Assembly: GCA_019635795.1 (NCBI GenBank)
Contig: JAHBYV010000001.1
Coordinates: forward strand, 186,001-250,000
Length of the DNA: 64,000 bases
Source of the DNA: Rhizobiaceae bacterium
GTDB taxonomy: Bacteria; Pseudomonadota; Alphaproteobacteria; Rhizobiales; Rhizobiaceae
Direction: 5' to 3'
Shown: in pieces, positions 34,893 to 55,224 of the stretch
How positions within the stretch are numbered: position 1 is the stretch's first letter
Layout of the letters: every line of letters starts with the position of its first letter
Position numbers and translations under genes: made by a program
The notes under the pieces: generated by a model
The model's input: the letters and a program-made list of their open reading frames with translations, nothing else
Databases searched by the model: none
Told to the model about the DNA's origin: nothing

Positions 34893-34895
34893 GAT

Positions 34896-38680: not shown

Positions 38681-38742
38681 TCGCAACCTCAAACTCCGCA
38701 CGCATTGCCAGTGCAGAGTCGAGACTATCGGAATGAATGATG

Positions 38743-38756
38743 GCTGCCTAGGCAGC
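38743..38756. promoter_or_regulatory. 14-bp perfect palindrome between lyase and importer genes
   Basis: GCTGCC-TA-GGCAGC (fully self-complementary, 14 bases) lies 11 bases after the lyase stop and about 60 bases before the ATPase start. It could be an operator for the importer operon or an intercistronic hairpin; without a T-tract it is a poor terminator. Confidence 0.45.
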
Positions 38757-38767
38757 AAATAGGCTTG

Positions 38768-39721
38768 TTAAAACTGTGGACAGCTTCCCCCGGAAAGTAC
38801 ATCGGCACAATCCGGCGATCGACGGAACTTGTCGTAATAAACCACCCAGTCGTCTGAATGTCCCGCCCGGTATGGCCCAAACTTGAAGTATTGGTTTTTT
38901 CCCAAATCCTTGTCGTTGTGGCCGACCATCCCGGTGACTGTTACGATAGGCTTTCCGTTTGCGAATAATTCAACCCGGCCATCGCCTTCCGGTCCGGGAC
39001 GGGTGTAAATAGCGAAATCAATCCAGCCGGAGTCGGGTTTGGGAAGCGGGTTGTGCTGCACCACATTCATCCTGTCGGTACAGCCGGAATAGAGCTCGCC
39101 ATCTTTCCCGGTCCAATCAGGGTCTGCGGCAACCAGTGCACGCATCTGATTGGTGTCGGGCCGCAACCAGACGGGAACGCCGTTGGGCGCACAGATTCCG
39201 GCTTTTCCTGTTGGCTTCGCGTCGGAGAGGCCCGGCCTATAGTTCGTCTCAACGGTTACGTGCAGCTTTCCATTTAAGAGGCGTAGAGCCAGGAATGGGC
39301 TGAAATCTCCATCCGCGCCGGGGTCAATTTCCCGCTTCCATTGCGCAATAAGATAGCGGTGGTCGTCAGAGGGTATAGGTTCGGCGAGCTTAACTGCAAA
39401 CCCGTGCCAAACACCCTGATCGTAGGGAACGCGAAGGTCCGTCTTTTCCCAGATTTCCGCGCGCTCGCTACAGCGTTCATCTTCCACCGGGCACATGGCG
39501 CGCACGCTCAATTTTAACGCACCCTTGCCTTCGAACACTTCGTCGCCCTGGAACTCCACCTTTCCAGCCTGTTGTTCCTTGTTTTCACGGTAGTAAAGCC
39601 CACCCTCCGGGGCAAAATCGGTTCCTTCAAAGCCATCTGAAAGTTTGGCGCTTTGTGCCGAAGCTGGAAGGGCTATAAGCGTGGAAACTAATAGGGCGGC
39701 TGCTCTGATGGTGCGCTTCAC
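38768..39721 (-). CDS. secreted heparin-lyase-I-like polysaccharide lyase
   Basis: 317 residues with a Sec signal peptide (about 1-22, cut after ASA). The mature part has the features I associate with the Polysacc_lyase (PF14099, heparin lyase I-like) jelly-roll fold: FEGTDF near the start, RAEIWEKTDLRVPYDQGVWHGFAVKL (about 87-112), YLIAQWKRE, PFLALRLLNGKLHVTVE and IVYYDKFRRS-type WVVYYDKFRRS near the end. These enzymes cleave acidic glycans by beta-elimination in periplasm or outside. The start overlaps the cyclase stop (ATGA), so the two are translationally coupled. Substrate unknown; a uronic-acid polymer, possibly the host's own, is suggested by ugd and epimerase genes nearby. Confidence 0.78.
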   Translation of the reverse strand: MKRTIRAAALLVSTLIALPASAQSAKLSDGFEGTDFAPEGGLYYRENKEQQAGKVEFQGDEVFEGKGALKLSVRAMCPVEDERCSERAEIWEKTDLRVPYDQGVWHGFAVKLAEPIPSDDHRYLIAQWKREIDPGADGDFSPFLALRLLNGKLHVTVETNYRPGLSDAKPTGKAGICAPNGVPVWLRPDTNQMRALVAADPDWTGKDGELYSGCTDRMNVVQHNPLPKPDSGWIDFAIYTRPGPEGDGRVELFANGKPIVTVTGMVGHNDKDLGKNQYFKFGPYRAGHSDDWVVYYDKFRRSPDCADVLSGGSCPQF

Positions 39722-41052
39722 TGGAAATTCTTCTCCCCGTCTTCTACTTTTTGCGGCTTGCGATGGAGCAAGATAAGTCTCTCGGCATCTGACATGTGGA
39801 CAGCTTCGCGATCAATCGCAGCGCCGTCAAATTCATTGATGCTTGCTATTTCTGGTGTCAAAACTGTTACTTTACTGCGCAAACCGGCGAGTTTTTCCTC
39901 ACCGATTGTTTTCCATCTTTCTGATGAGCAGTAATCAGCGAACTCTTTGCTGGCTATCAAGCGGGTTGCATACTTCTTACTGAGGTTTTGCAAGCGGGAC
40001 GCTTCGTTTACCGCCGAGCCGAAAACCGAAAAGGTAAGCCGGTCGGACAAACCGACATTGCCAAACATGACGTTGCCGACATTCATGCCGATACCGAAGT
40101 TGATCGGGTCCTGTCCGTGCGCTGTACGTTTCTCGTTCAGCAGCTTCATGCGTCCCGCTGCGCTTTGTGCTGCGTGAAGCGCTGACAGGCACGCCTTTTC
40201 CGATGGAACACGGTGTCGTTCGCATGGAAAGAGGGCCAGAAAGCCATCACCCAGAAAGCTCAGAATTTGGCCACCGGCCCGATTGAATGGTGTCGCTATG
40301 GCATCGAAGAATTGGTTTAGCGTGTCGATATAAACCTCGCGCCCCGCCGTTTCGGCCAGTTTGGTGGAGCCGCGCATATCTGCAATGACAAGTGCGGCGC
40401 GTATCGTGTCGCCTTCGCCGCGCTTGATCTTCCCGTTCAGCACGCGCCGCCCGGCCTCTCCGCCGAGGTAAGTGCACATCATGTTGTCGGCAAGTTTGCT
40501 AAGAACAGCCATTTTGCAAGCCATGGCAAGATGGCTCTGCAAGCGCAGAAGCTCAGCTATCATTTCATCGCTGAACCCTGACGGATGGTCGGTGGCCCAC
40601 GAACCAATCATCCCCTTTTCCTGCGAACTGTCGAAGGAATGGCGAAATGCAATGTAGTCTGTTGCGCCAAGCGCCTTAAGGTCTTCAAATACCGGAAACT
40701 CCGGCACAATATCCGGATTTATCCGTCGCCGAAGATGCTCAAGATCATACTCGAACAGGTAATAATAGGGGCTTTGGGTGAAGCGCTCGGATGCTCCGTC
40801 GGCGCTCTTGCGAATGCCCTCTACTTCCATCTGCCTGCCGCGCACCCAGGTGAACCCGAGGGCATCATAAAGCGGGTGCAGCATGGAAAAGCTCATATGT
40901 GCCCGCAAAAGAGGCATTCCTGTCGCTGCAAGGCGGTCGCAAAAGCCGCAAACGATTTTTTCCAGACTGTCCCCGCGAAGAGCCGCACGGGTCAGCCATT
41001 CCGCCACCCTGTCCAGCATTATGCGCGAAACTTCATTTGAAGGTGGCAACAT
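39718..41052 (-). CDS. class III adenylate/guanylate cyclase-domain protein
   Basis: About 444 residues from the ATG at 41052 (GAGG ten bases upstream; longer frames are open). The N-terminal 200 residues form an unrecognised, probably sensory domain without membrane helices. The cyclase domain (about 215-385) has metal Asp in VIADMRGST (225) and FLGDGFLALF (269). Transition-state Asn and Arg lie in AVNEASRL (349, 353). The purine-specifying Lys and Asp positions are both Ser (QILSFLGD, VFGSAV), so nucleotide preference is unclear. It is coupled to the downstream lyase gene and follows the DUF3095 gene by about 50 bases. Confidence 0.85.
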   Translation of the reverse strand: MLPPSNEVSRIMLDRVAEWLTRAALRGDSLEKIVCGFCDRLAATGMPLLRAHMSFSMLHPLYDALGFTWVRGRQMEVEGIRKSADGASERFTQSPYYYLFEYDLEHLRRRINPDIVPEFPVFEDLKALGATDYIAFRHSFDSSQEKGMIGSWATDHPSGFSDEMIAELLRLQSHLAMACKMAVLSKLADNMMCTYLGGEAGRRVLNGKIKRGEGDTIRAALVIADMRGSTKLAETAGREVYIDTLNQFFDAIATPFNRAGGQILSFLGDGFLALFPCERHRVPSEKACLSALHAAQSAAGRMKLLNEKRTAHGQDPINFGIGMNVGNVMFGNVGLSDRLTFSVFGSAVNEASRLQNLSKKYATRLIASKEFADYCSSERWKTIGEEKLAGLRSKVTVLTPEIASINEFDGAAIDREAVHMSDAERLILLHRKPQKVEDGEKNFQ

Positions 41053-41104
41053 GTGTTCTGTCCTCGAAGAATGACAGTCTAGGTAGGAAGGCGAAAGAAC
41101 AACC

Positions 41105-42295
41105 TCAAGCTGCAATCTTTGATTTAAGATTCTCTGCTGCCATTGCGTAGCCGCCAGCAGCTCCGTCCACAAAATGAATGTGATCGGGAGCAAGAGGCGT
41201 TGCTACGATACATGTCATCAAAGCGGCATTCTGCTTGTGCAGGCCAAAACGGCAAACTCCGTCCCGTTCGGCATCAATGAGTTTCTTTTCCAGTTGCGCA
41301 AGGGTTGCTGCATCAATGTCGATGGTCATTTTCAGACCGTCATCGAATTTTCGAAAGTCCGAGTTTGCTGCAACGTCTCGCTTGTAACGCTCCGCATTGA
41401 ACCGACCGAGTGAGCGTCCCGTCTTGTCGCTGTAAATGTTAAGCGCGAGTTGAATGAGGATCCAGAGCTTATAAGCGAGGCGCCTGCCTTTAGGCGCAGC
41501 CGCGCGAGCCTCGATGTCCATGCCAACGCTTGGAAAGCTGTGGTGCGGACCATCCATGGGAACGGGATGCCCGCCACGCTCGCTTTGGCTTGCGATTTCT
41601 ATGAGGTCAGCGACCAAAGCGCTGAAACGCGGCAGGCTTTCAATCCCGGTTGGCATAGCAATAACTGATACGATCTCGCCGCGCCGCGCGTCGATAGGGT
41701 CCCAGCGGCAAGACAGGCCGGCAAGGTCTGGCCGTGTGCCGCTTGCTGCCGGCGCAACGCGATAACGCCCGGCCTTCATCTCCGCTTCCGCCCAGCTTGC
41801 GCCGCCGCCCGCGAACATGGCGTATGTGACGTGCTCCGACACCCGCATTCGCGCAACGCGAACATCAAGGCCAGTCTTGCGCACATCCTCAACCGGCACG
41901 AGCGCAGCGCGAAGCTCGAGCCCCAGCTCGTCCATGACCCAGGCCTGCACTGCGGCTAGTGCTTCCTGCGCGGGGGTCCGCGCCGTGTGCGGCAGGGCGA
42001 CAAGAGCCCCGTCGCCGCCAAACGCAAACGGCAGATCGCGCGATCCGATACGGTTGAGCAGGGCGGAAATGACGCTTGCGCCGGCGGTGTTCACCGCCTT
42101 GTAGCGACCGGCCGCGATTGCGTCGGTGGATTTGACGATATCAGCGCAAGCCAGAAGCCAGCCATCGGGAAGAGGCTCATAGCCGCCAAAATCCGTGACG
42201 TCCTCGAACGCCGCAAGGACGGGAAGGTTTTCGAGAAAAGACCTGTCGGCGTCAAAGCTGACCATGTAGTGATAGCTATCACAAGTTGAACCCAT
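41105..42295 (-). CDS. DUF3095 cyclase-like protein
   Basis: About 396 residues from the ATG at 42295; no good ribosome-binding site distinguishes it from 42265. Matches the DUF3095 family in my judgement. The N-terminal half resembles a class III cyclase palm: LLACADIVKST and FAFGGDGALVALP retain both metal-site Asp residues in the cyclase spacing. The later catalytic Asn/Arg motif is not evident. The C-terminal half (AYKLWILIQLALNIYSDKTGRSLGRFNAERYKRDVAANSDFRKFDD) is specific to the family. No signal or membrane segment. First gene of a presumed operon with the cyclase and lyase; divergent from the GT4 gene. Confidence 0.8.
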   Translation of the reverse strand: MGSTCDSYHYMVSFDADRSFLENLPVLAAFEDVTDFGGYEPLPDGWLLACADIVKSTDAIAAGRYKAVNTAGASVISALLNRIGSRDLPFAFGGDGALVALPHTARTPAQEALAAVQAWVMDELGLELRAALVPVEDVRKTGLDVRVARMRVSEHVTYAMFAGGGASWAEAEMKAGRYRVAPAASGTRPDLAGLSCRWDPIDARRGEIVSVIAMPTGIESLPRFSALVADLIEIASQSERGGHPVPMDGPHHSFPSVGMDIEARAAAPKGRRLAYKLWILIQLALNIYSDKTGRSLGRFNAERYKRDVAANSDFRKFDDGLKMTIDIDAATLAQLEKKLIDAERDGVCRFGLHKQNAALMTCIVATPLAPDHIHFVDGAAGGYAMAAENLKSKIAA

Positions 42296-42337
42296 CGTCG
42301 CGGCCAAAGGGATTTGACAAGGGTGCGAAATCGGACA

Positions 42338-43432
42338 ATGAGCGATCAAATGCGCATTGCTTTTTACGCTCCGCTCAAGGCGCCCGATCACCCCGTTCCT
42401 TCCGGAGACCGTCAGATGGCGCGTCTTCTGGTTGAAGCGCTGAGCAATTGCGGCCATCAGGTGGAATTGGTTTCCAGTTTGCGTTCTTTTTGCGCGACCA
42501 ACGATGCCGGGCACTACGAGCGCATATCAGCAGAGGCTGGACGCGAAATTGAACGTATAGCTGCTGCTTGGCGTGTGTCAGGCGCGCCGCAAGCGTGGTT
42601 TACCTACCATCCATATTACAAAGCACCGGATTTGCTTGGTCCACGCTTATCTCGCATAGCCCAAATTCCGTACTTCACGGCTGAGGCCTCATGGTCGCAT
42701 CGTCGCAATGAGGGCGCATGGCGGGAAACACAAGCGCTGGTTGCCGAGGCGGTTGGGATGGCAACGGCCAATCTGTGCTTTACCGCTCGAGATAAAAACG
42801 GTTTGCAGGCTATCTGCCCGAACGCGCGGCTGGCTTCTTTTCCCCCTTTCATCAAGCCATCGCCGATCTTTAAACAAGCCAGTAGTGGCACAAGGCTCGT
42901 CACGGTCGCCATGATGCGCCCGGGAGACAAGCTGGAAAGCTATCGAATGCTTGCCAGCGCGCTTGAGCAAATCGCAGATATTGAATGGACGTTGACGATT
43001 GTTGGTTCTGGCCCCGCCGAACAATGGGTCCGTCAGGCTTTCGCCGCGCTTCCGTCGAAGCGGTTGCATTGGCTTGGCGAAGTGCCACCGCACGAGGTTC
43101 CAGCGATCTTGTCGGGTTTGGATATATATGTCTGGCCCGGATTTGGCGAAGCCTACGGCTTAGCCTATCTGGAGGCGGGAGCAGCAGGGCTTCCGGTTGT
43201 GGCGCAAAATATTGCTGGCGTTCCGGAGGCCGTTCGCGATGGTGTAACAGGTTTGCTGACCGAGGCAGGTAGCGTCGAAGCATTTGCCAGCGCAATATCT
43301 CGGATGTTGATCGATCCCGAACTGCAGGTAAAACTGGGTCAGCGGGGCAGGGCATTCGCGAACAGCGAAAGATCAATGAGTGCTGCGGTAGCGCGCCTCA
43401 ATGCCATTCTGGCGGAGGCTCTTCATGAATGA
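42338..43432 (+). CDS. GT4 family glycosyltransferase
   Basis: About 364 residues from ATG 42338; a TTG at 42314 and an ATG at 42350 are alternatives. Retaining GT-B enzyme: MRIAFYAPLKAPDHPVPSGDRQMARLL opens the acceptor domain, and PGFGEAYGLAYLEAGAAGLPVVAQNIAGVPEAV (about 265-297) is the donor-site E-x7-E motif region. Substrates unknown. Its end overlaps the deacetylase start by eight bases, so both act in one pathway, probably making and trimming the same glycan. Confidence 0.88.
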   Translation: MSDQMRIAFYAPLKAPDHPVPSGDRQMARLLVEALSNCGHQVELVSSLRSFCATNDAGHYERISAEAGREIERIAAAWRVSGAPQAWFTYHPYYKAPDLLGPRLSRIAQIPYFTAEASWSHRRNEGAWRETQALVAEAVGMATANLCFTARDKNGLQAICPNARLASFPPFIKPSPIFKQASSGTRLVTVAMMRPGDKLESYRMLASALEQIADIEWTLTIVGSGPAEQWVRQAFAALPSKRLHWLGEVPPHEVPAILSGLDIYVWPGFGEAYGLAYLEAGAAGLPVVAQNIAGVPEAVRDGVTGLLTEAGSVEAFASAISRMLIDPELQVKLGQRGRAFANSERSMSAAVARLNAILAEALHE

Positions 43433-44165
43433 ACCGACCGAAATATGGGAACCGTTGCGTGAAGTGCTGCGGGAGGCTCGGAGGCAGGGGCATGGAGTCC
43501 AGTTCTGGTTGCGTGACGATGATGCTGTCGAACCAACCCCTGCACTGGACAGGTTGTTGAACCTTTGTGATGAGTGGCGCGTTCCACTTGTGCTGGCTGT
43601 CATACCGCAGCCGACCGGTAACGCTCTGGCTGACCGCCTTGCGGCGTTCAACACGGTCAGCGTTGCTGTCCACGGTTGGGCGCATCTCAATCATGCTTTG
43701 CCGGGAGAAAAGAAGCAGGAGTTAGGAAGGCATCGCCCGGCGAGTACTATAATTGGAGAGTTGCGGGAGGGCCTCGAAAAGCTGAAAGGCCTCTATGGTT
43801 CGCGCGCAATCCCGATGCTGGTTCCGCCCTGGAACCGAATTGATCCCGATCTTGTTCCCCGCCTGAAGGATGCGGGGTTTACGACGCTATCGACATACGG
43901 TCCAAAGAAGATGCGCGACGTTCAAGTCATGAACAGCACTGTGGACGTGATTGACTGGCATGGAACTCGCGGATGCGTCGATCACGCCCGGTTGGTCGGC
44001 CAGATCGTGCAGCAGGTGAGATCAGGAGAGACCATTGGAATTCTGACTCACCATCTGGTTCACGACGAAGCGGTGTGGTTGTTCCTGCAACGTTTATTCG
44101 ACACGACAAGAGCCTACAACGTAGAATGGCTCTCGTCGGAAAAACTGCTCAAATCTCCAGAGTAA
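43425..44165 (+). CDS. polysaccharide deacetylase-like protein (CE4/NodB superfamily)
   Basis: About 246 residues from ATG 43425 with GGAGG four bases upstream. FWLRDDDAVEPTPALDRLL has the catalytic/metal Asp pair, VAVHGWAHLNHA the metal His region, and MLVPPWNRIDPDLVPRLKDAGFTTLSTYG the PPWN motif of a NodB-like TIM barrel. No signal peptide is seen, so it may act in the cytosol on a lipid- or nucleotide-linked sugar. Translationally coupled to the GT4 gene. Some members of the superfamily lack activity, so the reaction is inferred. Confidence 0.82.
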   Translation: MNEPTEIWEPLREVLREARRQGHGVQFWLRDDDAVEPTPALDRLLNLCDEWRVPLVLAVIPQPTGNALADRLAAFNTVSVAVHGWAHLNHALPGEKKQELGRHRPASTIIGELREGLEKLKGLYGSRAIPMLVPPWNRIDPDLVPRLKDAGFTTLSTYGPKKMRDVQVMNSTVDVIDWHGTRGCVDHARLVGQIVQQVRSGETIGILTHHLVHDEAVWLFLQRLFDTTRAYNVEWLSSEKLLKSPE

Positions 44166-44970
44166 GGCCGTCTCGAGCCGCAAAAGCCCCTGAAAATTCT
44201 GCTTTGGCCAACCGCTCATGAGCCTCAAGCTCCCCGTCGGTGCGCGCGGGGTCATGGTGAAACATCGCAAGACGCTTTGCACCGGCCGCCCTGCACAATT
44301 TCACGCCTTGCTGCCAGGTGGAATGACCAAAGCCGACACGGAAGGGCATTTCCTGTTCGGTATAGGTGCAGTCATAGATCGCCAGATCTGCACCGTTCAT
44401 CAAAGACAGAACCGCAGGATCAAGCTCGTCGCAGAGGTGCTCCGTGTCGCTCACATAGGCGACCGCCTTTCCTCCCCATTCAACCCGATACCCGATACAT
44501 CCGCCCGGATGGTTCAGGCTTGCGGTGCGAACCACAACATCGGGCTGCGGGGTCAGCACATCCGTAGAGCGAAAATCACGCCACTGAAATTTTGCTTGGC
44601 AAATGTCGATCTTCCCCGGGAACCAGGGTGGTGTGATGAAGCTCTCAACCATTTCGCGTGTGCTCATGCGCCCGGCCAGATGGCCGGACCACGTGGTCAG
44701 CCTTGTGCTCTTGCCGTAAAGCGGCCCGAAGAACGGGAACCCAAGAATATGGTCGTAGTGGCAATGGGTAAAAAAGAGGTCGAGTTTCCCGACGCCCTCC
44801 CGTTGCAGGCTTTCACCCAAGGGCCGAATTCCTGATCCCGCATCGAAAACAAGCAGATGTTCACCGCAACGCATCTCGATGCAGGCTGTATTGCCGCCAT
44901 ACCGGATGTATTCTGGCCCTGAAACCGGGACGCTGCCGCGCACTCCCCAAAACTTTACACGAAAACCCAT
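44149..44970 (-). CDS. MBL-fold metallo-hydrolase (PhnP/COG1235-like)
   Basis: 273 residues. GVRGSVPVSGPEYIRYGGNTACIE is a signature of the COG1235 group. The metal-binding HCHYDH (residues 69-74), NHPGG, SDTEH and MFHHDP supply the dinuclear site. Known relatives include phosphodiesterases acting on cyclic phosphates and RNA, so a cyclic-nucleotide phosphodiesterase is an attractive guess next to a cNMP-binding protein, but unproven. Last gene of the minus-strand operon with the pseudo-ABC protein; its end overlaps the convergent deacetylase by 17 bases. Confidence 0.85.
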   Translation of the reverse strand: MGFRVKFWGVRGSVPVSGPEYIRYGGNTACIEMRCGEHLLVFDAGSGIRPLGESLQREGVGKLDLFFTHCHYDHILGFPFFGPLYGKSTRLTTWSGHLAGRMSTREMVESFITPPWFPGKIDICQAKFQWRDFRSTDVLTPQPDVVVRTASLNHPGGCIGYRVEWGGKAVAYVSDTEHLCDELDPAVLSLMNGADLAIYDCTYTEQEMPFRVGFGHSTWQQGVKLCRAAGAKRLAMFHHDPARTDGELEAHERLAKAEFSGAFAARDGLTLEI

Positions 44971-45033: not shown

Positions 45034-45483
45034 TCAATGATGCGCACGCGCCTCCGCCAGCTCGGCGGTGGTGTTGGAAAGACGCATTGCAAGCACGCGG
45101 ACAATTTCGATCGTCATTTCCGGGAATTCGTGCAGCATCCGCAAGAAGTGATCCTTGCGGATACGCAAAGTTTCCACCCGACCGTTGGCGCGAACAGTTG
45201 CAGTGCGCGAGACGTCGCAGAGTATGGCAATCTCACCCACAATCGAGTTCGGCTCGACAACAGCAACAACAATCGGGCCGGCCTCAGATTCCACGACAAC
45301 ATCTGCCTTCCCGGTCAAGATGACATAGGCCGCGTCGCCCTCATCGCCTTGCCGGAAAAGTACCTGGCCGTCGTTGTAATTGACCCTTTCAGACGTAAAG
45401 GCGAGCAGCTTGAGCTTTGAAGGCTCAATACCGGAGAAAAGCGGCACTTGCCTTAGCATTCCGACTTCTTCTTTGAGCATCAT
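45034..45483 (-). CDS. stand-alone cyclic-nucleotide-binding protein
   Basis: 149 residues, one CAP-type cNMP-binding domain and no helix-turn-helix or enzymatic domain. LFSGIEPSKLKLLAF, DGQVLFRQGDEGDAAYVILTGKADV and the phosphate-binding cassette IVGEIAILCDVSRTATVRA (with Gly-Glu and Arg-Thr-Ala retained, about 82-100) indicate real ligand binding. It resembles regulatory subunits more than transcription factors. Its ATG overlaps the stop of the pseudo-ABC gene, suggesting it gates or senses for that protein. Confidence 0.88.
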   Translation of the reverse strand: MMLKEEVGMLRQVPLFSGIEPSKLKLLAFTSERVNYNDGQVLFRQGDEGDAAYVILTGKADVVVESEAGPIVVAVVEPNSIVGEIAILCDVSRTATVRANGRVETLRIRKDHFLRMLHEFPEMTIEIVRVLAMRLSNTTAELAEARAHH

Positions 45484-48209
45484 GGCTGCGGGTCCCAACT
45501 AATCAGCGATTTGAATATAGTGTTTTCTTCTCTAAGTTTCTCGCACGTCCCGTCCCCGACGAGCTTCCCTCTGTCGAATACCAGAACTCGATCAAAATAT
45601 TGCGACATTGAAGGTGAGCCGACAACCCAAAGCACAGCGGCATTGGGATCAATCTTGCGGACAAGTTCCAGAACACTCTGAACAATTTGTTCCTGGGCGC
45701 GTGTATCAAGCGCCAGCAGAGGCCGGTTGACGACCAGATAGTCTGGGCGCTTGATCAGAGCGCGGGCAAGATCAAGTTTCTGGCGCAGCGCACCACTCAG
45801 CCTTCGACCGCCAACTCCTACATTGAAGCTCAGGCCCACATCCAGAACTTCGTCGTAGAGGCCATGCTCTTCCAGTATATCGCAAACCATGGTCCGGACC
45901 TGTTCGGAGCCGTTGGCATGTCCATGGCCTATGCGTCCGAAAAGAATGTTATCCATCACGCTGGATGAACTGTTGTAGCGATCTGGATCGTACCGCTCGA
46001 TCAACCCTTCCAGATCGGGAGGCAAATTCCGATAGAATGCCTCGCGGGCCTCAACGATCCTGTCCATCAGATCTGCTGAAAGAAGCCCGAAACGATGCCG
46101 CGGTTCGATATAGGCAAAACTCAGGGAAATTATCGAAGCGCGGTCGTCCTGACCCACGTCCTGAAATTGCTTGCCGCCCAGCTTTTGCAACAGTGTTTGA
46201 TACGTCGGAATTTCTTCGGCGGTCATAAACTCTTGCTGCTGGAAGAACGGGTGGTCAGGTGGCAGGTCAGCAAACAGTTCGATTGTCTGCTCGGCAATGT
46301 TCAAACCCATAGCGTAAAGCCGGGTATCCAGACCTGTCTCCTTGAGAACAGATGCGAAATATGGATCGTTAGCCAAAGCGATACGTGGCGAAACCGGTCC
46401 CGCCGCTGCACCAAAAAGAAGGTTTACGCCTATCGTGGCTTCGCGGTTATAGCTTCCCGGCTCGAATGGAACCACAAGGTCGCTCATGTTCGCGTCATCC
46501 AACCGCTTGCGCAAAGCGCTGCGCAGCTCAACGATGTGTGTGGCTAACCCGGTGTGCCGTGCCGTATCCGCAGCTGATCTCAGCCCCAGATCGAGCACAT
46601 CGCGCGACATGCCAACAGCGTCTAACGCGGGGCGTACCGCTTGATATATATCCTGCGGCCCTTTTGCGCCCGCTGACTCATAGTCAACCCAGTCGCTCGC
46701 AATATCCAGGTCCGGGTTGCCTGCACTGTTTGCTTCGGCAATTTCCCACTCGCGATGCACCGCGGCCTGCTCGTCATATTCCTTTGCCCTGTAGGGAGCG
46801 TGCTTCAGCCCATAGAGCAGGTTATCGCGCAATGTCCCCTGAAACAGTGAGGCGTCGGATGAGGCATAAGCCATACGGCGGCCGGAAACAGCCTCCGGTA
46901 TTTCCGCAAGGTCACGATCCTCAGCAATAACGCGCCCGGTAAAAGGTTTCTCCAGCCTCACGAGCGCTGCCGCTAGTGCGTCGGCGCCACTGGAAGCTGT
47001 GCCCACCAGCGCAACATGCTCACCCGGTTTGACCTCAAACGTGACATGCTCGACCAGTGAAGCGCCGCTATCGTCCTGAACTGTAAGATTGTTCGCGCAA
47101 AGCGGGCCGCTAATGTGGGGAATTTCTTCCAGCGTCACGCGCTGAAGGCTGGGGTCAAGCACCTGATCGATGGTGAACTGCTCAACAACCTGAGCATATT
47201 TCACCTGCACATCCTGGCGCATCTGATCCCAGTCGATCAGGTCTTTCATGGGGCCGGGCAGGTCTTTGTAGGCACCGATAACTGCAACAAGCTGGCCCAC
47301 ATCAAGCCGGCCTTCCAGCGCCAGATAGCCGCCAATCATGTAGAAGAGGAAAGGCGTGACCTGCGCCAGAAAATTGTTGATGAATTTGACCAGAAACTTC
47401 CACTGGTAAAGGTCGTACCGGATCTTGAAAATTCTGCCGAGGCGGGCAGTTATATCGGCTCTTTCAAAGTTCGATGTATCGTTGATGTGGATTGCTCCAA
47501 TTCCATCAACGATTTCACCCACCCGTCCTGAAAGCTCGCGGGCAGTCAGTTGACGCTCTCGCCCCAAAATCAGCAAACGGCGGCGCATACGGGGAATGAG
47601 GACAATCTGAACCAGCACGATTGCCAGAGCGATCAGCCCGAGCCAAAAGCTCTGTACCATGATAAATGCCAGAGCGGTGAGCGCCTGTCCGCCGAGGAAA
47701 ACCGGCTGTACGAAGGCATCCCCAATGAACCCGCCCATTGGCTCGACTTCATCTTTTATCATTGTGGCAACTTCAGCGGATTTCACGCGCTTGAAGTGTC
47801 CGATGGGGAACCGCAGGACGAGATCGACAAGTTCATATCGGACCCGGCGCAACATGCGCTCGCCAAGCCGTCCCTTATAAGTGTTGATGTAGAGCTTGAA
47901 GAGACCGTTGATGATCACAAGCAGCAGGAACACCATGCTGAGCGCAAACAGCATCTGTTCGCGACCAAGCTGGAAGCCGGAGAAAAACTCGACGTGACCG
48001 AAGAACGGCACGTCAAAGGCGATGTTCAGGAAGGTTTGCGTGGCGTCAGGACTGCCGAAACCATCACCCTGAATTGGTCCATTGACGATCAGCTTCGGCA
48101 GATCGAAAGACATATAATAGGGCACCATCGATAGCAGGACGATTGCCACTATCCAGAGTTGCTGGCGCCAGGTGTGAGTCCAAATATAGCGGAGTAGTGA
48201 CGGCTCCAT
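45480..48209 (-). CDS. ABC exporter-like protein with degenerate ATPase site
   Basis: 909 residues. An exporter-type membrane domain occupies about 15-330 (six helices) with a large loop at about 43-80. The nucleotide-binding domain is abnormal. Walker A is GTASSGAD (403-410; Lys and Ser/Thr missing), signature LSGAL (804-808), Walker B YLVVNRP (Asp to Asn, Glu to Arg), and the switch His is replaced (VVGSPS, about 862-867). Between Walker A and signature about 270 extra residues contain repeats of the segment NLLYG...GMSRDVLDLGL: DNLLYG 462, NLLFG 596, DNILFG 753. It is unlikely to hydrolyse ATP normally and may be a scaffold, channel or regulated pore. Coupled to the cNMP-binding gene. Confidence 0.85.
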   Translation of the reverse strand: MEPSLLRYIWTHTWRQQLWIVAIVLLSMVPYYMSFDLPKLIVNGPIQGDGFGSPDATQTFLNIAFDVPFFGHVEFFSGFQLGREQMLFALSMVFLLLVIINGLFKLYINTYKGRLGERMLRRVRYELVDLVLRFPIGHFKRVKSAEVATMIKDEVEPMGGFIGDAFVQPVFLGGQALTALAFIMVQSFWLGLIALAIVLVQIVLIPRMRRRLLILGRERQLTARELSGRVGEIVDGIGAIHINDTSNFERADITARLGRIFKIRYDLYQWKFLVKFINNFLAQVTPFLFYMIGGYLALEGRLDVGQLVAVIGAYKDLPGPMKDLIDWDQMRQDVQVKYAQVVEQFTIDQVLDPSLQRVTLEEIPHISGPLCANNLTVQDDSGASLVEHVTFEVKPGEHVALVGTASSGADALAAALVRLEKPFTGRVIAEDRDLAEIPEAVSGRRMAYASSDASLFQGTLRDNLLYGLKHAPYRAKEYDEQAAVHREWEIAEANSAGNPDLDIASDWVDYESAGAKGPQDIYQAVRPALDAVGMSRDVLDLGLRSAADTARHTGLATHIVELRSALRKRLDDANMSDLVVPFEPGSYNREATIGVNLLFGAAAGPVSPRIALANDPYFASVLKETGLDTRLYAMGLNIAEQTIELFADLPPDHPFFQQQEFMTAEEIPTYQTLLQKLGGKQFQDVGQDDRASIISLSFAYIEPRHRFGLLSADLMDRIVEAREAFYRNLPPDLEGLIERYDPDRYNSSSSVMDNILFGRIGHGHANGSEQVRTMVCDILEEHGLYDEVLDVGLSFNVGVGGRRLSGALRQKLDLARALIKRPDYLVVNRPLLALDTRAQEQIVQSVLELVRKIDPNAAVLWVVGSPSMSQYFDRVLVFDRGKLVGDGTCEKLREENTIFKSLISWDPQP

Positions 48210-48848: not shown

Positions 48849-49517
48849 ATGGATCACAACAACATTATTGATTCAACTAAAGATTGGCATGAAGACGCGT
48901 TCGACCTGACGCGCGGTATTGCCGCTTATACGCGCTCGCCGCTTGTCGCGAGGATTGCGAAGGTACTCGCAAAGCACCCGCAAGCCTCCATTGCAAATGC
49001 CTTCAATCATAAGCAGGTCGCCTGCAAGATGTGGGCACGCGATGAGCTGCACAATGCTTTTGGCGGCAAATACCAGCGCATTTGGGTGTTGGGGGGTTGG
49101 TATGGCGTGTTGGCCGCCATGCTGTTTGACGATGCGCGATTTGATATAGGCTCGATTGAAACCATCGACCTTGATGAGAATGTCGCCGCTATCGCCCAAA
49201 CCTTGAATGGAAACGATCCGCGTCTGATCGCGCGAACCTGCGATATGTACGCCCTTGATTATGCAGGCGGAAAGCCGGACCTCGTGGTTAATACGAGTTG
49301 CGAGCACATTGCTGATGTGCGCGGCTGGCTGGACATGCTACCCGGCGGAACCAGGGTTCTGCTTCAATCGAATGATTATTACGCCGAGCCGACCCACATC
49401 AATTGCGTTAGCTCGCAAGATGCATTCGAGAGACTCGCCAGTTTGTCCAGTGTAAGCTTTGCGGGCACGCTGCCTCAGAAAAAGTACAACCGCTTCATGC
49501 TGATTGGGACTGCCTGA
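48849..49517 (+). CDS. class I SAM-dependent methyltransferase-like protein
   Basis: 222 residues. RIWVLGGWYGVLAAMLFDD (about 77-95) fits motif I, IETIDLDENVAAIAQTLNG the acidic second strand, and LVVNTSCEHIADVRGWLDMLP the motif IV region. Proteins of this kind occur beside glycosyltransferases. Divergent from the 48216-48788 gene; its 3' end overlaps the convergent glycosyltransferase by 23 bases. Substrate unknown. Confidence 0.7.
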   Translation: MDHNNIIDSTKDWHEDAFDLTRGIAAYTRSPLVARIAKVLAKHPQASIANAFNHKQVACKMWARDELHNAFGGKYQRIWVLGGWYGVLAAMLFDDARFDIGSIETIDLDENVAAIAQTLNGNDPRLIARTCDMYALDYAGGKPDLVVNTSCEHIADVRGWLDMLPGGTRVLLQSNDYYAEPTHINCVSSQDAFERLASLSSVSFAGTLPQKKYNRFMLIGTA

Positions 49518-50646
49518 CGCGCCAGTGCTCAAGCAGGATTTGAACCGTGCGCTGCGCGCCATTCAAGTCAAGCGTACTGGCGGGCGGTGGATTCTGTTCC
49601 AATGCACCTTCAATCGCGATCAGGAGCGTATCACCGTCGAGTTTTTCTTCCGATAACATAGATGCAAGGCCCAATGCCTCCAATCTGCGGGCTCGGCTCG
49701 TCTGTTCCGTTTCGCCTCCTTCCGCGAACGGAATGAGCAGGGACCGGCACCGGGCTCGCAGTATGTCACAAACGGTGTTGTAACCTGCTTGCGAGACAGA
49801 CAATTTAGCCCCAGACAGCAGGTCAGGGAAGTCCGGCCTGAATCGAAAAACAGACAGGTTTGGCGATGCAGCGGCAAGCGCATGGCGGTAATCGGCTTCT
49901 GGCAAATTTGGTCCGGTAATCAGGGAGATTGACCGGTCGCGCGGCATCTTGGCCGCAGCATCCACGCTTGCTGCAACAAGCTTTCTGCCCGCTGCACCGC
50001 CGCCAGCTGAAATCAAGATATCAAACCGCTCCTGCGGTGCATCGGGGGCAGGTCCCGCGACCATACCGGTATAGGCAATGCGGTCAGCGATCTGGCCCGC
50101 TAAGGGAAACGTCTCTTCCAGCCTGGCAAATGCCGCGTCTCCGTGCACAAGCACGAGATCGAAATAGCGGCGCACCAGTTCAACCGTTTCCTCATTGCGT
50201 CCGGGCTTGGTGCGTTCCTGCATTATGTCGCGCAAAGAGCAGGCAAGCAGCGGCTTTGGCGCGCCCTGCGATATGGCCTCAAGCAAAGGCACAAGCTCAA
50301 ATCGCATTTGCCGCCTTCCAAATGGGAAGGCTTCCACGATCACTATATCTGGCTGAAATTCGGAATAAATTGAGAGTAGCAGGTCACGCCTGTCGTTCAG
50401 AAAACGTTCGTCGACGGCGGACCCGTCAGGATGTGCCAGACCGGAAAAACCTTCGCTGGCGACAACTGGCGGCAATGCTACATGCGCAATTTCTGAGGGC
50501 GGAAAACCATCAACGGGCGCGCCGCCGGTTACAAGCTTGAGATTGGCGCCAGCACGGTGAAGCGCAGAAGAAATGCGACTTGCGCGCGCCAAATGTCCAA
50601 TGCCTAGCAGATGCTGAACATAGAACAGAATGCGCGGGGCGTTCAT
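49495..50646 (-). CDS. MurG-like GT-B glycosyltransferase (1)
   Basis: About 383 residues from ATG 50646. ILFYVQHLLGIGHLARASRISSAL is a MurG/GT28-like N-terminal loop, ILISAGGGAAGRKL begins the donor domain, and LSVSQAGYNTVCDILRARCRSLLIPFAEGGETEQTSRA (about 295-333) is the GT28 C-terminal nucleotide-sugar site. Cytosolic. Its start overlaps the end of the GT4 gene upstream by four bases. Last of a three-glycosyltransferase operon. Confidence 0.85.
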   Translation of the reverse strand: MNAPRILFYVQHLLGIGHLARASRISSALHRAGANLKLVTGGAPVDGFPPSEIAHVALPPVVASEGFSGLAHPDGSAVDERFLNDRRDLLLSIYSEFQPDIVIVEAFPFGRRQMRFELVPLLEAISQGAPKPLLACSLRDIMQERTKPGRNEETVELVRRYFDLVLVHGDAAFARLEETFPLAGQIADRIAYTGMVAGPAPDAPQERFDILISAGGGAAGRKLVAASVDAAAKMPRDRSISLITGPNLPEADYRHALAAASPNLSVFRFRPDFPDLLSGAKLSVSQAGYNTVCDILRARCRSLLIPFAEGGETEQTSRARRLEALGLASMLSEEKLDGDTLLIAIEGALEQNPPPASTLDLNGAQRTVQILLEHWRVRQSQSA

Positions 50647-51884
50647 ATGCGGTCCCATTCCTGTTCGAACAGCGCTTTAAGCTGCCGAATGCTGGAATGA
50701 TAATCAAAGCGGGTGCGAACACGATCTTCAGCGGCAGTGCCGAGTTGTGCTCTCAAGGAAGGGTTGCGAATAAGTCGCTCCAGAGCTTGCGCCAGTGCAG
50801 CCGGGCTTTCCGATGGAACGACAAGGCCGTTCTGACCATCTGTCAGCAGTTCGGGCACGCCGGACACGTCCGTCGAAACGCAGGCAAGGCCCTGACTCGC
50901 CGCTTCAACCAGCACATTGGGCAGTCCGTCACGATCGCCGTCTGGCGCTATTCGGCAGGCAAGCGCAAAAATATCCGAGGCGCGATATTGAGAAAGCACA
51001 TCTTCCTGAGCTTGTGCTCCCTTCCAGACAATGCGGCCATCCAACCCAAGACGCGTCGCTTGCGCCTTCAGTTCCGCAATTTTTTCACCTGACCCGATGT
51101 GAGTAAAACGCCAGTGCAGATCGCGCGGTAGCAATGCGAGCGCATCGAGCAGCGTGTCGAATCCCTTCTTGTGAACCGCACGTCCAACACTCACGATTTC
51201 GACGGGATTGGCCGTGTCGCTTCCATCGCGATCATGAGCGCGTGCGGGGAAGGTCGCAAAACGATCAAGATCAAGGCCGTGATAACTGAGGTGGACAGCA
51301 GAGCGACCGTCCAAAAGCTGTTCTAAATGCTGATGGCCGCTTTGCGTGCAGGTAACAGTCCACCGCGCACCGGCCAGTTTGTCGGACAACTCCTTGTCCT
51401 CAGAGGTCCAAATGTCCTTTGCGTGGGCCGAACAGGTCCATGGAATACCGCGCAGCATGGCGGCGTAGCGCGTTACAGAGGCCGGAGTATGCGCGAAATG
51501 CGCGTGAAGCCAGAACCCGCGTTCCGGCCATTCATTGGCCAGAACCAGAGCCTGACCAAATCTTCTGAACCGGTTGCGCGTGAAGTCGCGCGTGAGGTCC
51601 TTCGCGAAGGCAGGGATGGCCTTCCAGAAACGGGCCGTCGGCATGACAGCAAGCAGCGCCCGCAACACGCGCCCTCGCTCATCATGCAAGTACTCCGGCA
51701 GGTAGCGCACCTCCGCCTCGATCTCATCATGCACGGGATGGCGTTTGGTATCGGTTGGCCTGCGCAGTACAACGATGACAATCTCGATGCCGGATTGCTC
51801 AAGCCCACGTAACTCTTGGGCAATGAAGGTTTCGGAAAGGCGTGGATAGCCTTTGAGAACGATGACGAGACGCTGATTTCTCAT
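50643..51884 (-). CDS. GT4 family glycosyltransferase
   Basis: About 413 residues from ATG 51884, 13 bases after the preceding stop. RLVIVLKGYPRLSETFIAQELRGLEQSG is a GT4 N-terminus of the kind found in exopolysaccharide glycosyltransferases. The donor site is IAPDGDRDGLPNVLVEAASQGLACVSTDVSGVPELL (about 315-350) with the conserved second Glu. FPARAH and VEIVSVGRAVHKKGFDTLL mark the domain junction. Middle gene of the operon. Confidence 0.88.
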   Translation of the reverse strand: MRNQRLVIVLKGYPRLSETFIAQELRGLEQSGIEIVIVVLRRPTDTKRHPVHDEIEAEVRYLPEYLHDERGRVLRALLAVMPTARFWKAIPAFAKDLTRDFTRNRFRRFGQALVLANEWPERGFWLHAHFAHTPASVTRYAAMLRGIPWTCSAHAKDIWTSEDKELSDKLAGARWTVTCTQSGHQHLEQLLDGRSAVHLSYHGLDLDRFATFPARAHDRDGSDTANPVEIVSVGRAVHKKGFDTLLDALALLPRDLHWRFTHIGSGEKIAELKAQATRLGLDGRIVWKGAQAQEDVLSQYRASDIFALACRIAPDGDRDGLPNVLVEAASQGLACVSTDVSGVPELLTDGQNGLVVPSESPAALAQALERLIRNPSLRAQLGTAAEDRVRTRFDYHSSIRQLKALFEQEWDRI

Positions 51885-51897
51885 GTGTATCGGCGAG

Positions 51898-53112
51898 TCA
51901 AATCGCGCCTTCAACGACCGAAAAGTTCCGGCGCTCGCTTCGATCAAGCCAAGTGCCGACACGGTCGGAAATTCTCGACAAACCTTCAAGCTGCAAGTCA
52001 GGATTGCTTTGTGACGGACGAGGGCGGCGCAGCAATTCTTTCAATTTAGCCGCCATCAGGGCGGGTTCTTCGGCTTGTTCGGGCAAAATCATATCAACCA
52101 GCCCCAATTCGGCGGCACGCTGCGCCCGAATGAGCTGCTCTTCGCGCGGCGCAACGCGCGGAACGATCAAGGCTGGCTTGTCGAAGGAAAGAATCTCGCA
52201 ATAGGTGTTGTAGCCGCCCATTGCCACAACCGCCTTGGCGCCGGCGACCAGATCTTCCATGCGATTGTCGAACTCTATCATCTTGATACTGCTGATCGGC
52301 GCGCTCTTGCGCATCAGTTTCCGACGCTTGTTCGCGGGCATGTATGGTCCGAGCACGATGAGCGCGCGTTGCGTCAGGCTCGAGTCACTCTGATAAGCAT
52401 GTATGACGTTATGCACCAGATCGGCACCGTCGCCGCCGCCACCGGTTGTAACCAATATGTAGTCGCCCTCAGGCCGGTGATCCTCCGATTGCAAATCCGG
52501 CACCTTGCGTTGCAGAAATCCAACGAAATCCATCTTTGAGCGCACGCTGGATGGCACGTCGAGACCGGTCAGCGGGTCATAGAAATCTGGCGGGCCGTAG
52601 ACCCAGATCGAATCATAGAACATGGCAATCTTGCGCATGACATCCGCGCGCTTCCATTCGGCATCCAGCAATCGCGGAGCGTCCATAACCTCCCGCAAGC
52701 CGAGAATCAGCGTTGTTCCGCGCGTCTTGAGATATGACAGCGTATCTGCAACCTCACCGCGCAGACCCAGAGGCTCCTTGTCCACGATGAAAATGTCGGG
52801 GCGGAACGTCTCTGCAGTGCTGCGAATGATGGACTGGCGCATCTTCAGTGTATCCTGAAGATCAATGTGCTTTTCGAGGGAAGTGTACTCCCCGTTCCGC
52901 AGTTTGATCACGCTTGGAATTTTCACGAAATCGACGCGGGCCCGATAGTCGAACGCTCCCGCGATGGGCGAGCCGGATATGATCAGAACATTCAGCCCAC
53001 GATAATCTTCGACGAGCGCATGAGCGATTGTCCGACAACGACGCAAATGGCCAAGGCCAAACGTGTCGTGACTGTACATAAGGATACGTGCTTCCTCGAA
53101 ACGCCGCTTCAT
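51898..53112 (-). CDS. MurG-like GT-B glycosyltransferase (2)
   Basis: 404 residues. ILMYSHDTFGLGHLRRCRTIAHAL is related to the N-terminus of the 49495 protein (shared H-x6-GHL-R pattern), and DYILVTTGGGGDGADLVHN plus VAMGGYNTYCEILSFDKPALIVPRVAPREEQLIRA (about 300-334) form the donor domain. The two genes probably arose from one ancestor but are strongly diverged. First of the three-glycosyltransferase operon and divergent from the membrane cyclase across about 230 bases that must hold both promoters. Confidence 0.85.
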   Translation of the reverse strand: MKRRFEEARILMYSHDTFGLGHLRRCRTIAHALVEDYRGLNVLIISGSPIAGAFDYRARVDFVKIPSVIKLRNGEYTSLEKHIDLQDTLKMRQSIIRSTAETFRPDIFIVDKEPLGLRGEVADTLSYLKTRGTTLILGLREVMDAPRLLDAEWKRADVMRKIAMFYDSIWVYGPPDFYDPLTGLDVPSSVRSKMDFVGFLQRKVPDLQSEDHRPEGDYILVTTGGGGDGADLVHNVIHAYQSDSSLTQRALIVLGPYMPANKRRKLMRKSAPISSIKMIEFDNRMEDLVAGAKAVVAMGGYNTYCEILSFDKPALIVPRVAPREEQLIRAQRAAELGLVDMILPEQAEEPALMAAKLKELLRRPRPSQSNPDLQLEGLSRISDRVGTWLDRSERRNFSVVEGAI

Positions 53113-53340
53113 CGTTTTTAGCCTATGCTTTCCGTTCGACCGGATCGGCGTTTTCGAACGCTCTCATTTGAAATTACACCACCCTAGCGGGAACAATGCA
53201 ACCAATGGAGGAATTCTTCAAATTATACGTTAAAGCATTTTTGGTAACAACCTGTGCGAGTACTATTCGACATTCTACAGAGAGAAACGCTGTAACAATA
53301 CCGAAACGGCGTGCTGGCACAGAACTGAAAGCAGGTGAGA

Positions 53341-55224
53341 ATGGCGGCTGAAGCCGACACTTCCTCGCATGAAGAGCAATCGACACGGCGTTGGGCCATA
53401 GGCAAATTTCTGCCTGCGGTGCTTGCTATGCTGATTCTGGCTGTAATGCTTCCGGTGCTTCTCGTTGCCGCGTTCGCCGCACATGAGGTGACTGCGTGGT
53501 TGCTGCGGGACCGGGGTGATTTGCTGGTCGAATCCGTGGTGACACCAATTGAGACCGCAACGCTGCCAGTCTCAGTGCAGATTGATGCTGCGGCATCCAT
53601 GATGGCCAGCGGCGCAATTTCTTCTGAAAATCCGGGCGAATTTGGCGCATTTGTTCAAGGCCTGCTTGCCGCCTCGCCGCGCGCCGGGGGCATCGCTCTT
53701 ATCGAAACAGATGGCGCGTTGCGCAGGTGGAACAGGCTTGGGGAGGAGGCCGTTGCTGAAACGACTGGCACGGCCTTCCGCGAGCGACTGTTGAACGAAG
53801 CGAGAGAAGGCAAAGCCGGACGGTGGTCGGAACCAGTCTTCTCCCATAGCACTGGCGAAATTATATTTACCTACGCAGCGCCCGTTCGGCGCAATGGAGG
53901 GTTGGTAGGTATACTCGCTGCTTTCATGCTCGCGCGTTCGCTTTCCGAGGAATTGGCGGATATTGGCAAGCAATTCGACGTGACGCCCTTCCTGATTGCG
54001 CAAGACAAATATGTTGTTGCCCATCCCTCAATGGTGTCGCGGGAGGTGTTGCAGAAGGCGGTTGAGAACGAACAGCTTCCCACAATAGCCTCGCTGGGCG
54101 ATCCGGTACTCGCTTCCATGTGGAATGAAACCGGCAAGCTTGAACTTTCAATGCCATTGCGTGACGCGACCGGGCACCGGGCAAATGTCGATGGCACCTC
54201 GTATACCTATATCTACCGGAAGCTGGCGCTGCCCGGGGAAGCTGAAATGATTGCAGGTTTCTACCTTCCGACTTCAGCTACCCAGCAGGATCGATGGCTA
54301 AGTGCTGCTGTGACAGGCGTTGGCCTGCTGCTCATGGCATTGGCAATCTACGCTGCCACCTGGCTGGCGCGGGGACTTGCGCGCCCTATGATGGATTTTG
54401 GCGCGGCCTCGCGCGCCATCGGAGAGTTTGATTTCCGCGAAAAGGGTCTCCAGCATTGGGAAAACAGCCGTGTGGAAGAGGTTGCCGATACGGCTGCCGC
54501 AATGCGGCGAACCTCTCGGGCACTGACAGCATTCGAGCGCTACGTCCCGAAAACGCTGGTTCGTCAGTTGCTATCGCTCGGAAATGACAGCAGCCGTCCT
54601 GTTCGCCGCGATATGACGGTTATGTTTCTCGACCTCCAAGGCTACACGCGGTTTGCCAAGGATCGTCCCGCAGATGAGGTTGCTGACTATCTCGATACGA
54701 TCTTTGGCAGGATTGGCCCTATTATCGAGCAATGCGGCGGCACAATCGATAAATATACCGGCGATGGCCTGATGGCCTTTTGGGGCGCACCTTTGCCCGA
54801 TGAACTTCATGCAACGCACGCAGTAGAGGCGGCGATGAGAATCGCAGACGAATTAACGCCTTACATCCACGACCAACGCGAAAAAAGCGTCGAGCATTGC
54901 CGCATTCGCATCGGGATACATTCCGGCGAAGCGGTGGTTGGCGATCTCGGGTATGGCGGACGGATGAACTACACCGTTGTGGGTGACACGGTGAACATGG
55001 CGAAACGCACCGAGGGGGCAGGGCGCGTGGTGCCGCTCGAAATTGCCGTGGTTGTTGTGGTCACGCCAGCCGTAGTCAGCAAGGTACGTCTCGAAGAGGC
55101 CGGAATTGAACGCGCACCACTTGATGGCGGCGAAGTCCTTGGTCAACTTTGGCTGCTTGGAGAAGCGGCCAAAGTGAAAATCATGAATCCCGCTATTCAG
55201 GACCGTCCCGTCACACAGGGTTGA
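53341..55224 (+). CDS. membrane sensor adenylate cyclase (class III)
   Basis: About 627 residues from ATG 53341 (AGG six bases upstream; GTG 53335 also open). TM1 about 25-48, an extracytoplasmic Cache-like sensor about 50-315, TM2 about 320-343, a HAMP-like linker, then a cyclase domain from about 425. Metal Asp residues are in VMFLDLQGYT and KYTGDGLMAFWG; the purine Lys (IDKYTGD) and Asp (YTVVGDTVN) are kept, predicting ATP as substrate. Transition-state Asn and Arg are in TVNMAKRTE. It should make cAMP in response to a periplasmic signal. Divergent from the glycosyltransferase operon. Confidence 0.9.
   Translation: MAAEADTSSHEEQSTRRWAIGKFLPAVLAMLILAVMLPVLLVAAFAAHEVTAWLLRDRGDLLVESVVTPIETATLPVSVQIDAAASMMASGAISSENPGEFGAFVQGLLAASPRAGGIALIETDGALRRWNRLGEEAVAETTGTAFRERLLNEAREGKAGRWSEPVFSHSTGEIIFTYAAPVRRNGGLVGILAAFMLARSLSEELADIGKQFDVTPFLIAQDKYVVAHPSMVSREVLQKAVENEQLPTIASLGDPVLASMWNETGKLELSMPLRDATGHRANVDGTSYTYIYRKLALPGEAEMIAGFYLPTSATQQDRWLSAAVTGVGLLLMALAIYAATWLARGLARPMMDFGAASRAIGEFDFREKGLQHWENSRVEEVADTAAAMRRTSRALTAFERYVPKTLVRQLLSLGNDSSRPVRRDMTVMFLDLQGYTRFAKDRPADEVADYLDTIFGRIGPIIEQCGGTIDKYTGDGLMAFWGAPLPDELHATHAVEAAMRIADELTPYIHDQREKSVEHCRIRIGIHSGEAVVGDLGYGGRMNYTVVGDTVNMAKRTEGAGRVVPLEIAVVVVVTPAVVSKVRLEEAGIERAPLDGGEVLGQLWLLGEAAKVKIMNPAIQDRPVTQG

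Follow-up and report, generated by a model that had tools for sequence, protein, structure and literature searches.

An exporter-fold ABC protein with replaced catalytic residues and a cyclic-nucleotide-binding partner in a Rhizobiaceae genome

We describe an exporter-fold ATP-binding cassette (ABC) protein with replaced catalytic residues, encoded in a stretch of 64,000 nucleotides from a Rhizobiaceae bacterium (assembly GCA_019635795.1, contig JAHBYV010000001.1, positions 186,001 to 250,000), hereafter the window. Its gene, which we call pseudo-ABC, lies at 45480-48209 on the minus strand, is followed by a gene for a cyclic-nucleotide-binding (cNMP) domain and sits among polysaccharide genes. 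We give an even chance to the reading that it is an exporter homologue without ATPase activity that a cyclic nucleotide switches through the partner or fused cNMP domain and that serves a surface polysaccharide. As far as we searched the open-licence full-text literature, the family is not described there.

The frame runs intact from an ATG start over 909 codons (909 amino acids), as a preliminary description of this DNA had stated; on the plus strand, stops leave no open frame from the same base. Pfam finds ABC_membrane (7e-18, residues 86-311) followed by ABC_tran (9.1e-11, residues 387-482), domains present in 39 and 38, respectively, of the 39 members of a family alignment (A3). The protein has the nucleotide-binding-domain fold, and its best matches in both sequence and structure are type IV ABC exporters. 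Exporters (MsbA, NHLP-type) also top the 25 best curated NCBIfam models, all of them far below their cut-offs. The membrane domain spans residues 1-350 (47160-48209, minus strand, as are all parts of the protein given below) and the first part of the nucleotide-binding domain residues 360-470 (46800-47132). The first periplasmic loop (residues about 48-82; 47964-48068) is long and has predicted beta strands, which to our knowledge is unusual for a bacterial exporter.

Motif positions were set by alignment with four canonical exporters from the same genome. Walker A reads GTASSGAD (residues 403-410; 46980-47003), with A409 for the lysine and D410 for the serine or threonine; Walker B reads VVNRP (residues 826-830; 45720-45734), with N828 for the aspartate and R829 for the glutamate. 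The alignment confirms both of these earlier assignments. In addition, the Q-loop glutamine is replaced by S451 and the A-loop aromatic residue by D379. The preliminary description took every motif to be degenerate, and this is correct for Walker A, Walker B and the switch histidine; the signature LSGAL (residues 804-808; 45786-45800), however, is near normal, its glutamine lost but its serine and glycine retained. The histidine, said to be replaced by SPS, is indeed missing, but its position is occupied by G864 (45618-45620), and SPS starts one residue later. The pseudo-ABC protein is thus an exporter-fold ABC protein with its catalytic residues replaced.

Homologues occur at E ≤1e-60 in 26 of 61 genomes (its own and relatives) and in 94 of 297 genomes of the order. 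At E ≤1e-40 they occur in 98 of 289 genomes of the class and 32 of 398 of the phylum, a single one, consisting of the membrane domain only, lying outside the class. After 8 partial or weak hits out of 240 were dropped, the 232 full-length homologues, which include the window's own and duplicate retrievals of the same gene, were reduced to 186 (98% non-redundant) and 105 (70% non-redundant). None of the 186 alphaproteobacterial family members, the window's own included, holds the Walker A lysine and serine or threonine, the Walker B aspartate and glutamate and the switch histidine all together. A canonical exporter served as control: each of its 29 orthologues from related genomes, a set that excludes the query, has all five residues intact. 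In the 186 homologues, position 409 is A in 75, R in 37, K in 35 and G in 29; position 410 is E in 113, D in 31, S in 13 and T in 11. Position 828 is N in 137 and D in 32, position 829 R in 102 and E in 28, and position 864 S in 74 and H in 14.

A FastTree phylogeny of the 105 representatives, with the four canonical exporters as outgroup and the five motif columns left in, assigns the window protein to a clade of 36 members (support 1.0); several backbone branches are weak, down to 0.17 just below this clade. K409, D828, E829 and H864 are absent from all 36 members, the window's included. Position 409 is never R either, 828 is N in 36 of 36, and 829 is R (29), Q (4), K (2) or N (1). Homologues outside the clade retain K, D, E and H in varying combinations. 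At positions 409, 410, 828, 829 and 864, homologue L211, which has an adjacent cNMP gene, carries K, E, D, E and H, L172 carries K, T, N, E and H, and L191 K, S, D, E and G; the distant relative L165 retains part of the lysine, aspartate/glutamate and histidine set. Serine or threonine after the Walker A lysine is present in L172, L173, L191, L153 and L155. Hence homologues with a complete site were not found among the 186, but the distant L211, L165, L172 and L191 keep parts of it. Because distant relatives do so, the loss of the ATPase looks graded and stepwise, ending in a clade with an apparently dead site but a fixed N828. This asparagine is itself conserved, but not every degenerate residue is: positions 409 and 864 are variable, in keeping with a loss of function.

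Could the protein still be powered by ATP, through pairing in trans with a canonical half-transporter or by a remnant mechanism like that of TmrAB and TM287/288? We consider this unlikely. The loss of K, D, E and H in 36 of 36 clade members speaks against it, as do the signature glycine, kept in only 27 of 186 homologues, and a large insert ahead of the signature. On the other hand, of the 186 homologues 156 retain serine or threonine at 805, 167 retain Gln 808 and 170 retain Arg 809, and some deep relatives have most catalytic residues. The genome itself has four other exporter-like matches, and a partner could be encoded elsewhere. No exporter partner is conserved nearby: a canonical exporter frame of more than 450 amino acids lies in 7 of 133 homologue flanks versus 1 of 40 control stretches (sampling given below). 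A canonical partner exporter next door was considered and set aside; with no length limit, such matches amount to at most 13 of 133 loci versus 4 of 40 controls (summed by query).

The insert consists of about 285 mostly helical residues (about 471-755; 45945-46799), which interrupt the nucleotide-binding domain between the Q-loop region and the signature. It is partly duplicated: repeat copy 1 (residues 560-640; 46290-46532), containing N-L-L-F-G, and copy 2 (residues 720-810; 45780-46052), containing N-I-L-F-G and extending into the signature, align in hhalign at E 3.6e-20 over 75 columns. In 249 genomes searched, the insert profile matched only this family and its near relatives. It had no match among sequences of solved structures, and a Foldseek search with the insert model, whose mean pLDDT (predicted local distance difference test) is only 65.4, gave none at E ≤0.001, an uninformative outcome that does not establish a new fold.

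The membrane domain is the best-conserved part of the protein, unlike in the canonical exporter used as control. In 25 homologues from related genomes, identity to the window protein is 64% in the membrane domain and 41% and 44% in the two halves of the nucleotide-binding domain; in the 29 control orthologues the values are 72% for the membrane domain and 71% for the nucleotide-binding domain. Among the 105 representatives, columns at least 95% identical number 47 of 350 in the membrane domain and 7 of 285 in the insert; the two parts of the nucleotide-binding domain have 1 of 111 and 5 of 150. Fifteen charged residues of the membrane domain are at least 95% conserved. Against five homologues, the ratio of nonsynonymous to synonymous substitution (dN/dS), where dS was finite, is 0.023-0.077 in the membrane domain and 0.086-0.195 in the other parts; these ratios are rough because dS is high, being saturated in several comparisons and above 1.4 elsewhere.

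Judged from these sequence comparisons, the pseudo-ABC gene is under purifying selection and not decaying. Decay would agree with the lower conservation of the nucleotide-binding domain, with the patchy presence of the gene (26 of 61 genomes) and with a few homologue matches in the order-, class- and phylum-level searches that carry at least one internal stop. It would also agree with a broken frame in the Sinorhizobium meliloti 1021 pSymB record (L379 17685-20450), either an error or a strain-specific loss, the frame being intact in strain 2011. We nonetheless regard decay as highly improbable, since all 27 match rows of the search in the genome itself and its relatives (61 genomes) are free of internal stops, dN/dS stays below 0.2 where finite, and N828 is found in the whole clade. 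Sequencing error or a pseudogene in the window was rejected too: the frame is open and the altered residues are common to relatives. The earlier proposal of a selected, probably non-hydrolytic role rather than decay thus gains support from the clade-wide loss of K, D, E and H and the low dN/dS. It did not choose between scaffold, channel and nucleotide sensor; to it we add the association with a cNMP domain described next.

Directly downstream lies the gene of a single-domain cNMP protein (45034-45483, minus strand), in which an ATG at 45483 shares bases with the ABC gene's TGA stop (ATGA). Its Pfam cyclic-nucleotide-binding domain scores 4.6e-21, a GEIAIL...RTATV stretch resembles a phosphate-binding cassette, and Pfam finds no DNA-binding domain in it. 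One of its 93 distinct matched sequences is the cAMP-binding subunit of protein kinase A (7.4e-20; cAMP, cyclic AMP).

To count neighbours we used 133 loci with a homologue, each 12 kb or longer and with flanks of about 10 kb or less, and as controls 40 stretches of 19.9 kb from 20 genomes carrying the family; the 133 loci share ancestry, and some of them stem from a single genome. By phmmer the cNMP gene is directly downstream in 117 loci and fused in 11, to which a hidden Markov model (HMM) adds one fusion (L190) and three downstream cases with overlapping frames (L205, L225 and L199). The cNMP domain is therefore present in 132 of 133 loci, 120 times directly downstream and 12 times fused at the C-terminus, and in 0 of 40 controls. 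Pfam confirms the fusion in L191, L185, L228, L200 and L229, and L199 is of the downstream kind. In loci representing the 70% non-redundant homologues, the cNMP frame is separate from the ABC frame in 44 of 56. Of 42 aligned partners, 34 retain the phosphate-binding-cassette pattern.

The other neighbours point to a polysaccharide. Three upstream glycosyltransferases (49495-50658, 50643-51989 and 51898-53112, minus strand) are matched in 104, 109 and 107 of the 133 loci and in 0, 2 and 0 of the 40 controls. A further glycosyltransferase (42314-43432, plus strand) is matched in 48 loci and 1 control. A polysaccharide-deacetylase-like gene (43401-44165, plus strand), whose Pfam match is weak and below cut-off, recurs in 45 loci and no control. 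The gene following the cNMP gene encodes a hydrolase of the metallo-beta-lactamase (MBL) fold (Lactamase_B_2; 44149-44970, minus strand), matched in 33 loci and 0 controls. Farther downstream lies an oligopeptide-type importer with a polysaccharide lyase (32719-39721, minus strand); the importer comprises two permeases, a 672-residue solute-binding protein (family 5), matched in 82 loci and 0 controls, and a fused double ATPase. The importer recurs beside pseudo-ABC clusters, and the whole importer-lyase block is also found in S. meliloti pSymB. The importer may take up fragments of the polymer. Also in the window are a class III cyclase-domain gene (39718-41193, minus strand), a DUF3095 gene (41105-42514, minus strand) and a second cyclase-domain gene with a Cache-like stretch (53335-55224, plus strand).

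The pairing or fusion with a cNMP sensor inside a polysaccharide cluster makes the protein probably a signal-controlled component of that pathway and not an ordinary pump. The same pairing with a sensor domain and glycosyltransferases could suit a scaffold that merely tethers them to the membrane, nothing passing through it. Such a role is possible but improbable, as the membrane domain is the best-conserved part and its 15 highly conserved charged residues exceed what an anchor would be expected to need. A Pycsar-like anti-phage system, in which a cyclase signal acts through a cNMP domain to activate a membrane effector, seems very unlikely. The cNMP protein does match Pycsar-type models of PADLOC, but only over the shared cNMP domain; cyclase genes do lie nearby in the window, but it is polysaccharide genes that are conserved around the family, and matches to the two cyclases occur at no more than 20 and 17 of 133 loci (controls, 0 and 0 of 40).

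A likely counterpart of the cluster is carried by pSymB of S. meliloti 1021. The gene order is deacetylase-like, MBL, DUF3095, cyclase, polysaccharide lyase and importer, continuing with three glycosyltransferases, a homologue of window 48849-49517 (annotated elsewhere as a methyltransferase), pseudo-ABC and cNMP. In strain RCAM1750 the genes that come next encode an FkbM methyltransferase and a LacI regulator, and SM_b21272 is a LacI regulator in the accessible part of one study (PMC11387232). Counting back in this order, pseudo-ABC would be SMb21269 and the first glycosyltransferase SMb21265. The latter agrees with the published name, as the accessible text of a second study calls smb21265 a glycosyltransferase family protein (PMC10128002).

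That text assigns nine genes between smb21252 and smb21271 to an uncharacterised surface polysaccharide, PPP, which protects against phazolicin, and confirms this role with smb21252 and smb21265 mutants. It also implicates cAMP, the adenylate cyclase gene cyaA being depleted in the phazolicin screen; the pseudo-ABC protein is not mentioned in the part available (PMC10128002). Seven of the nine PPP genes are up-regulated under Myxococcus attack, according to the available text of PMC10315480. From gene order and counting, we infer that the pseudo-ABC gene belongs to the PPP cluster smb21252-smb21271. An O-antigen gene, pRL110056, is needed in root colonisation in the accessible part of PMC11103875; the record of pRL11 uses newer locus tags.

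We now propose how the pseudo-ABC protein might work. It would come from an ancient family of exporter-fold ABC proteins in the Alphaproteobacteria, of which the window's clade no longer hydrolyses ATP. Two copies would probably form the usual dimer, with the nucleotide-binding domain, enlarged by the partly duplicated helical insert, serving as a structural platform. The cNMP partner, whether the next gene or a C-terminal fusion, would bind cAMP or cyclic GMP (cGMP) and switch the membrane domain. The latter would help to make or move the surface polysaccharide that the neighbouring glycosyltransferases build, or its lipid-linked precursor. In this scheme we infer the ATPase inactivity, the dimer, the binding of the partner, its ligand, the switching and the substrate.

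Several observations weigh against this proposal. L211 keeps much of the catalytic site together with the same kind of partner, so some relatives may bind or hydrolyse ATP. By HMM, locus L203 has no cNMP domain, 8 of 42 partners do not show the cassette pattern, and, as given above, the two cyclases are near few of the loci. The assignment to the PPP cluster rests on gene order and counting. Strain 1021, whose record has the broken frame, is the strain of the published screen, so PPP may not need pseudo-ABC. Further, the accessible text of that study has the cyaA mutant changing little on retest (PMC10128002), and the available text on HetC of Nostoc, an exporter with a cNMP domain, reports that this domain bound ppGpp (guanosine tetraphosphate) and not cAMP (PMC10986499), showing that other ligands are possible for related cNMP domains.

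If it holds, the family-wide loss of the ATPase in a full-length bacterial exporter, selected in many genera and linked to a cyclic-nucleotide sensor, would be a natural experiment on how such a membrane domain can function with no ATP power. It would also suggest a way in which cyclic nucleotides could act directly on the surface-polysaccharide machinery. Rhizobia have many cyclases and few known targets for them. A bolder version makes the protein a bacterial counterpart in kind to CFTR and SUR, a cyclic-nucleotide-gated conduit or flippase in which cAMP or cGMP binding replaces ATP power; we hold this version to be doubtful. Were it true, membrane-domain-only relatives would add to a broader group of exporter membrane domains that lack ATP power.

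Such relatives, of about 320-430 residues and too short for an added ATPase domain, exist in the class, at L198 9040-10281, L376 5992-7296, L377 6058-7032 and L378 5920-7008. Across the four neighbourhoods covered, some lie in copper operons; one has genes for a P-type ATPase, a CBS-domain protein and a universal stress protein as neighbours, and another is beside mgtA and a universal stress protein. These cases suggest that the membrane domain of the family can exist with no ATPase of its own, a separate ATPase subunit being possible. Conversely, L193, L194 and L196 keep the nucleotide-binding domain and insert, and their N-terminal membrane part has no significant similarity.

The best 80 of 301 relatives belong to Mesorhizobium, Rhizobium, Phyllobacterium, Pseudaminobacter, Paramesorhizobium, Ensifer and unclassified Rhizobiales, and 262 plasmid records carry the gene. 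Among 60 plasmid records listed, 37 give a product name: 21 read 'ABC transporter ATP-binding protein' and 10 'ABC transporter transmembrane domain-containing protein'. The former name is probably misleading for this family. Elsewhere in the window, a RES-domain gene (56370-57065) with an Xre/MbcA/ParS-type antitoxin-like gene directly upstream (57059-57472), both on the minus strand, looks like a RES-Xre toxin-antitoxin pair.

Among known systems, type IV ABC exporters of the MsbA, TmrAB and ComA/PCAT kinds have in common with pseudo-ABC the families of the membrane and nucleotide-binding domains and the fold. Unlike them, the pseudo-ABC protein has lost its catalytic residues, carries the repeat-bearing insert of about 285 residues and has a cNMP partner. 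The half-degenerate heterodimeric exporters TmrAB, TM287/288 and BmrCD likewise tolerate, and select, a degenerate nucleotide site. Those exporters, however, retain one functional site and have a partner subunit, whereas no conserved partner gene was found near pseudo-ABC. CFTR and SUR similarly put an ABC exporter fold to a non-pumping role, and SUR2 structures are among the structure matches of the pseudo-ABC protein; we claim no evolutionary closeness to them. Both still bind ATP. The PPP cluster of S. meliloti fits in its gene order, in the glycosyltransferase smb21265 and in the discussion of cAMP in the available text (PMC10128002).

The closest published parallel that we found is HetC, which likewise combines an ABC exporter with a cNMP domain. 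As described in the accessible part of PMC10986499, HetC joins a cNMP domain, a C39 peptidase and an ABC exporter, and its function needs both the cNMP domain and the ATPase residue. The arrangement differs, since the cNMP domain of HetC is N-terminal and accompanied by the peptidase; that of pseudo-ABC is downstream or C-terminal, the catalytic residues are lost, and Pfam finds no peptidase domain in the protein.

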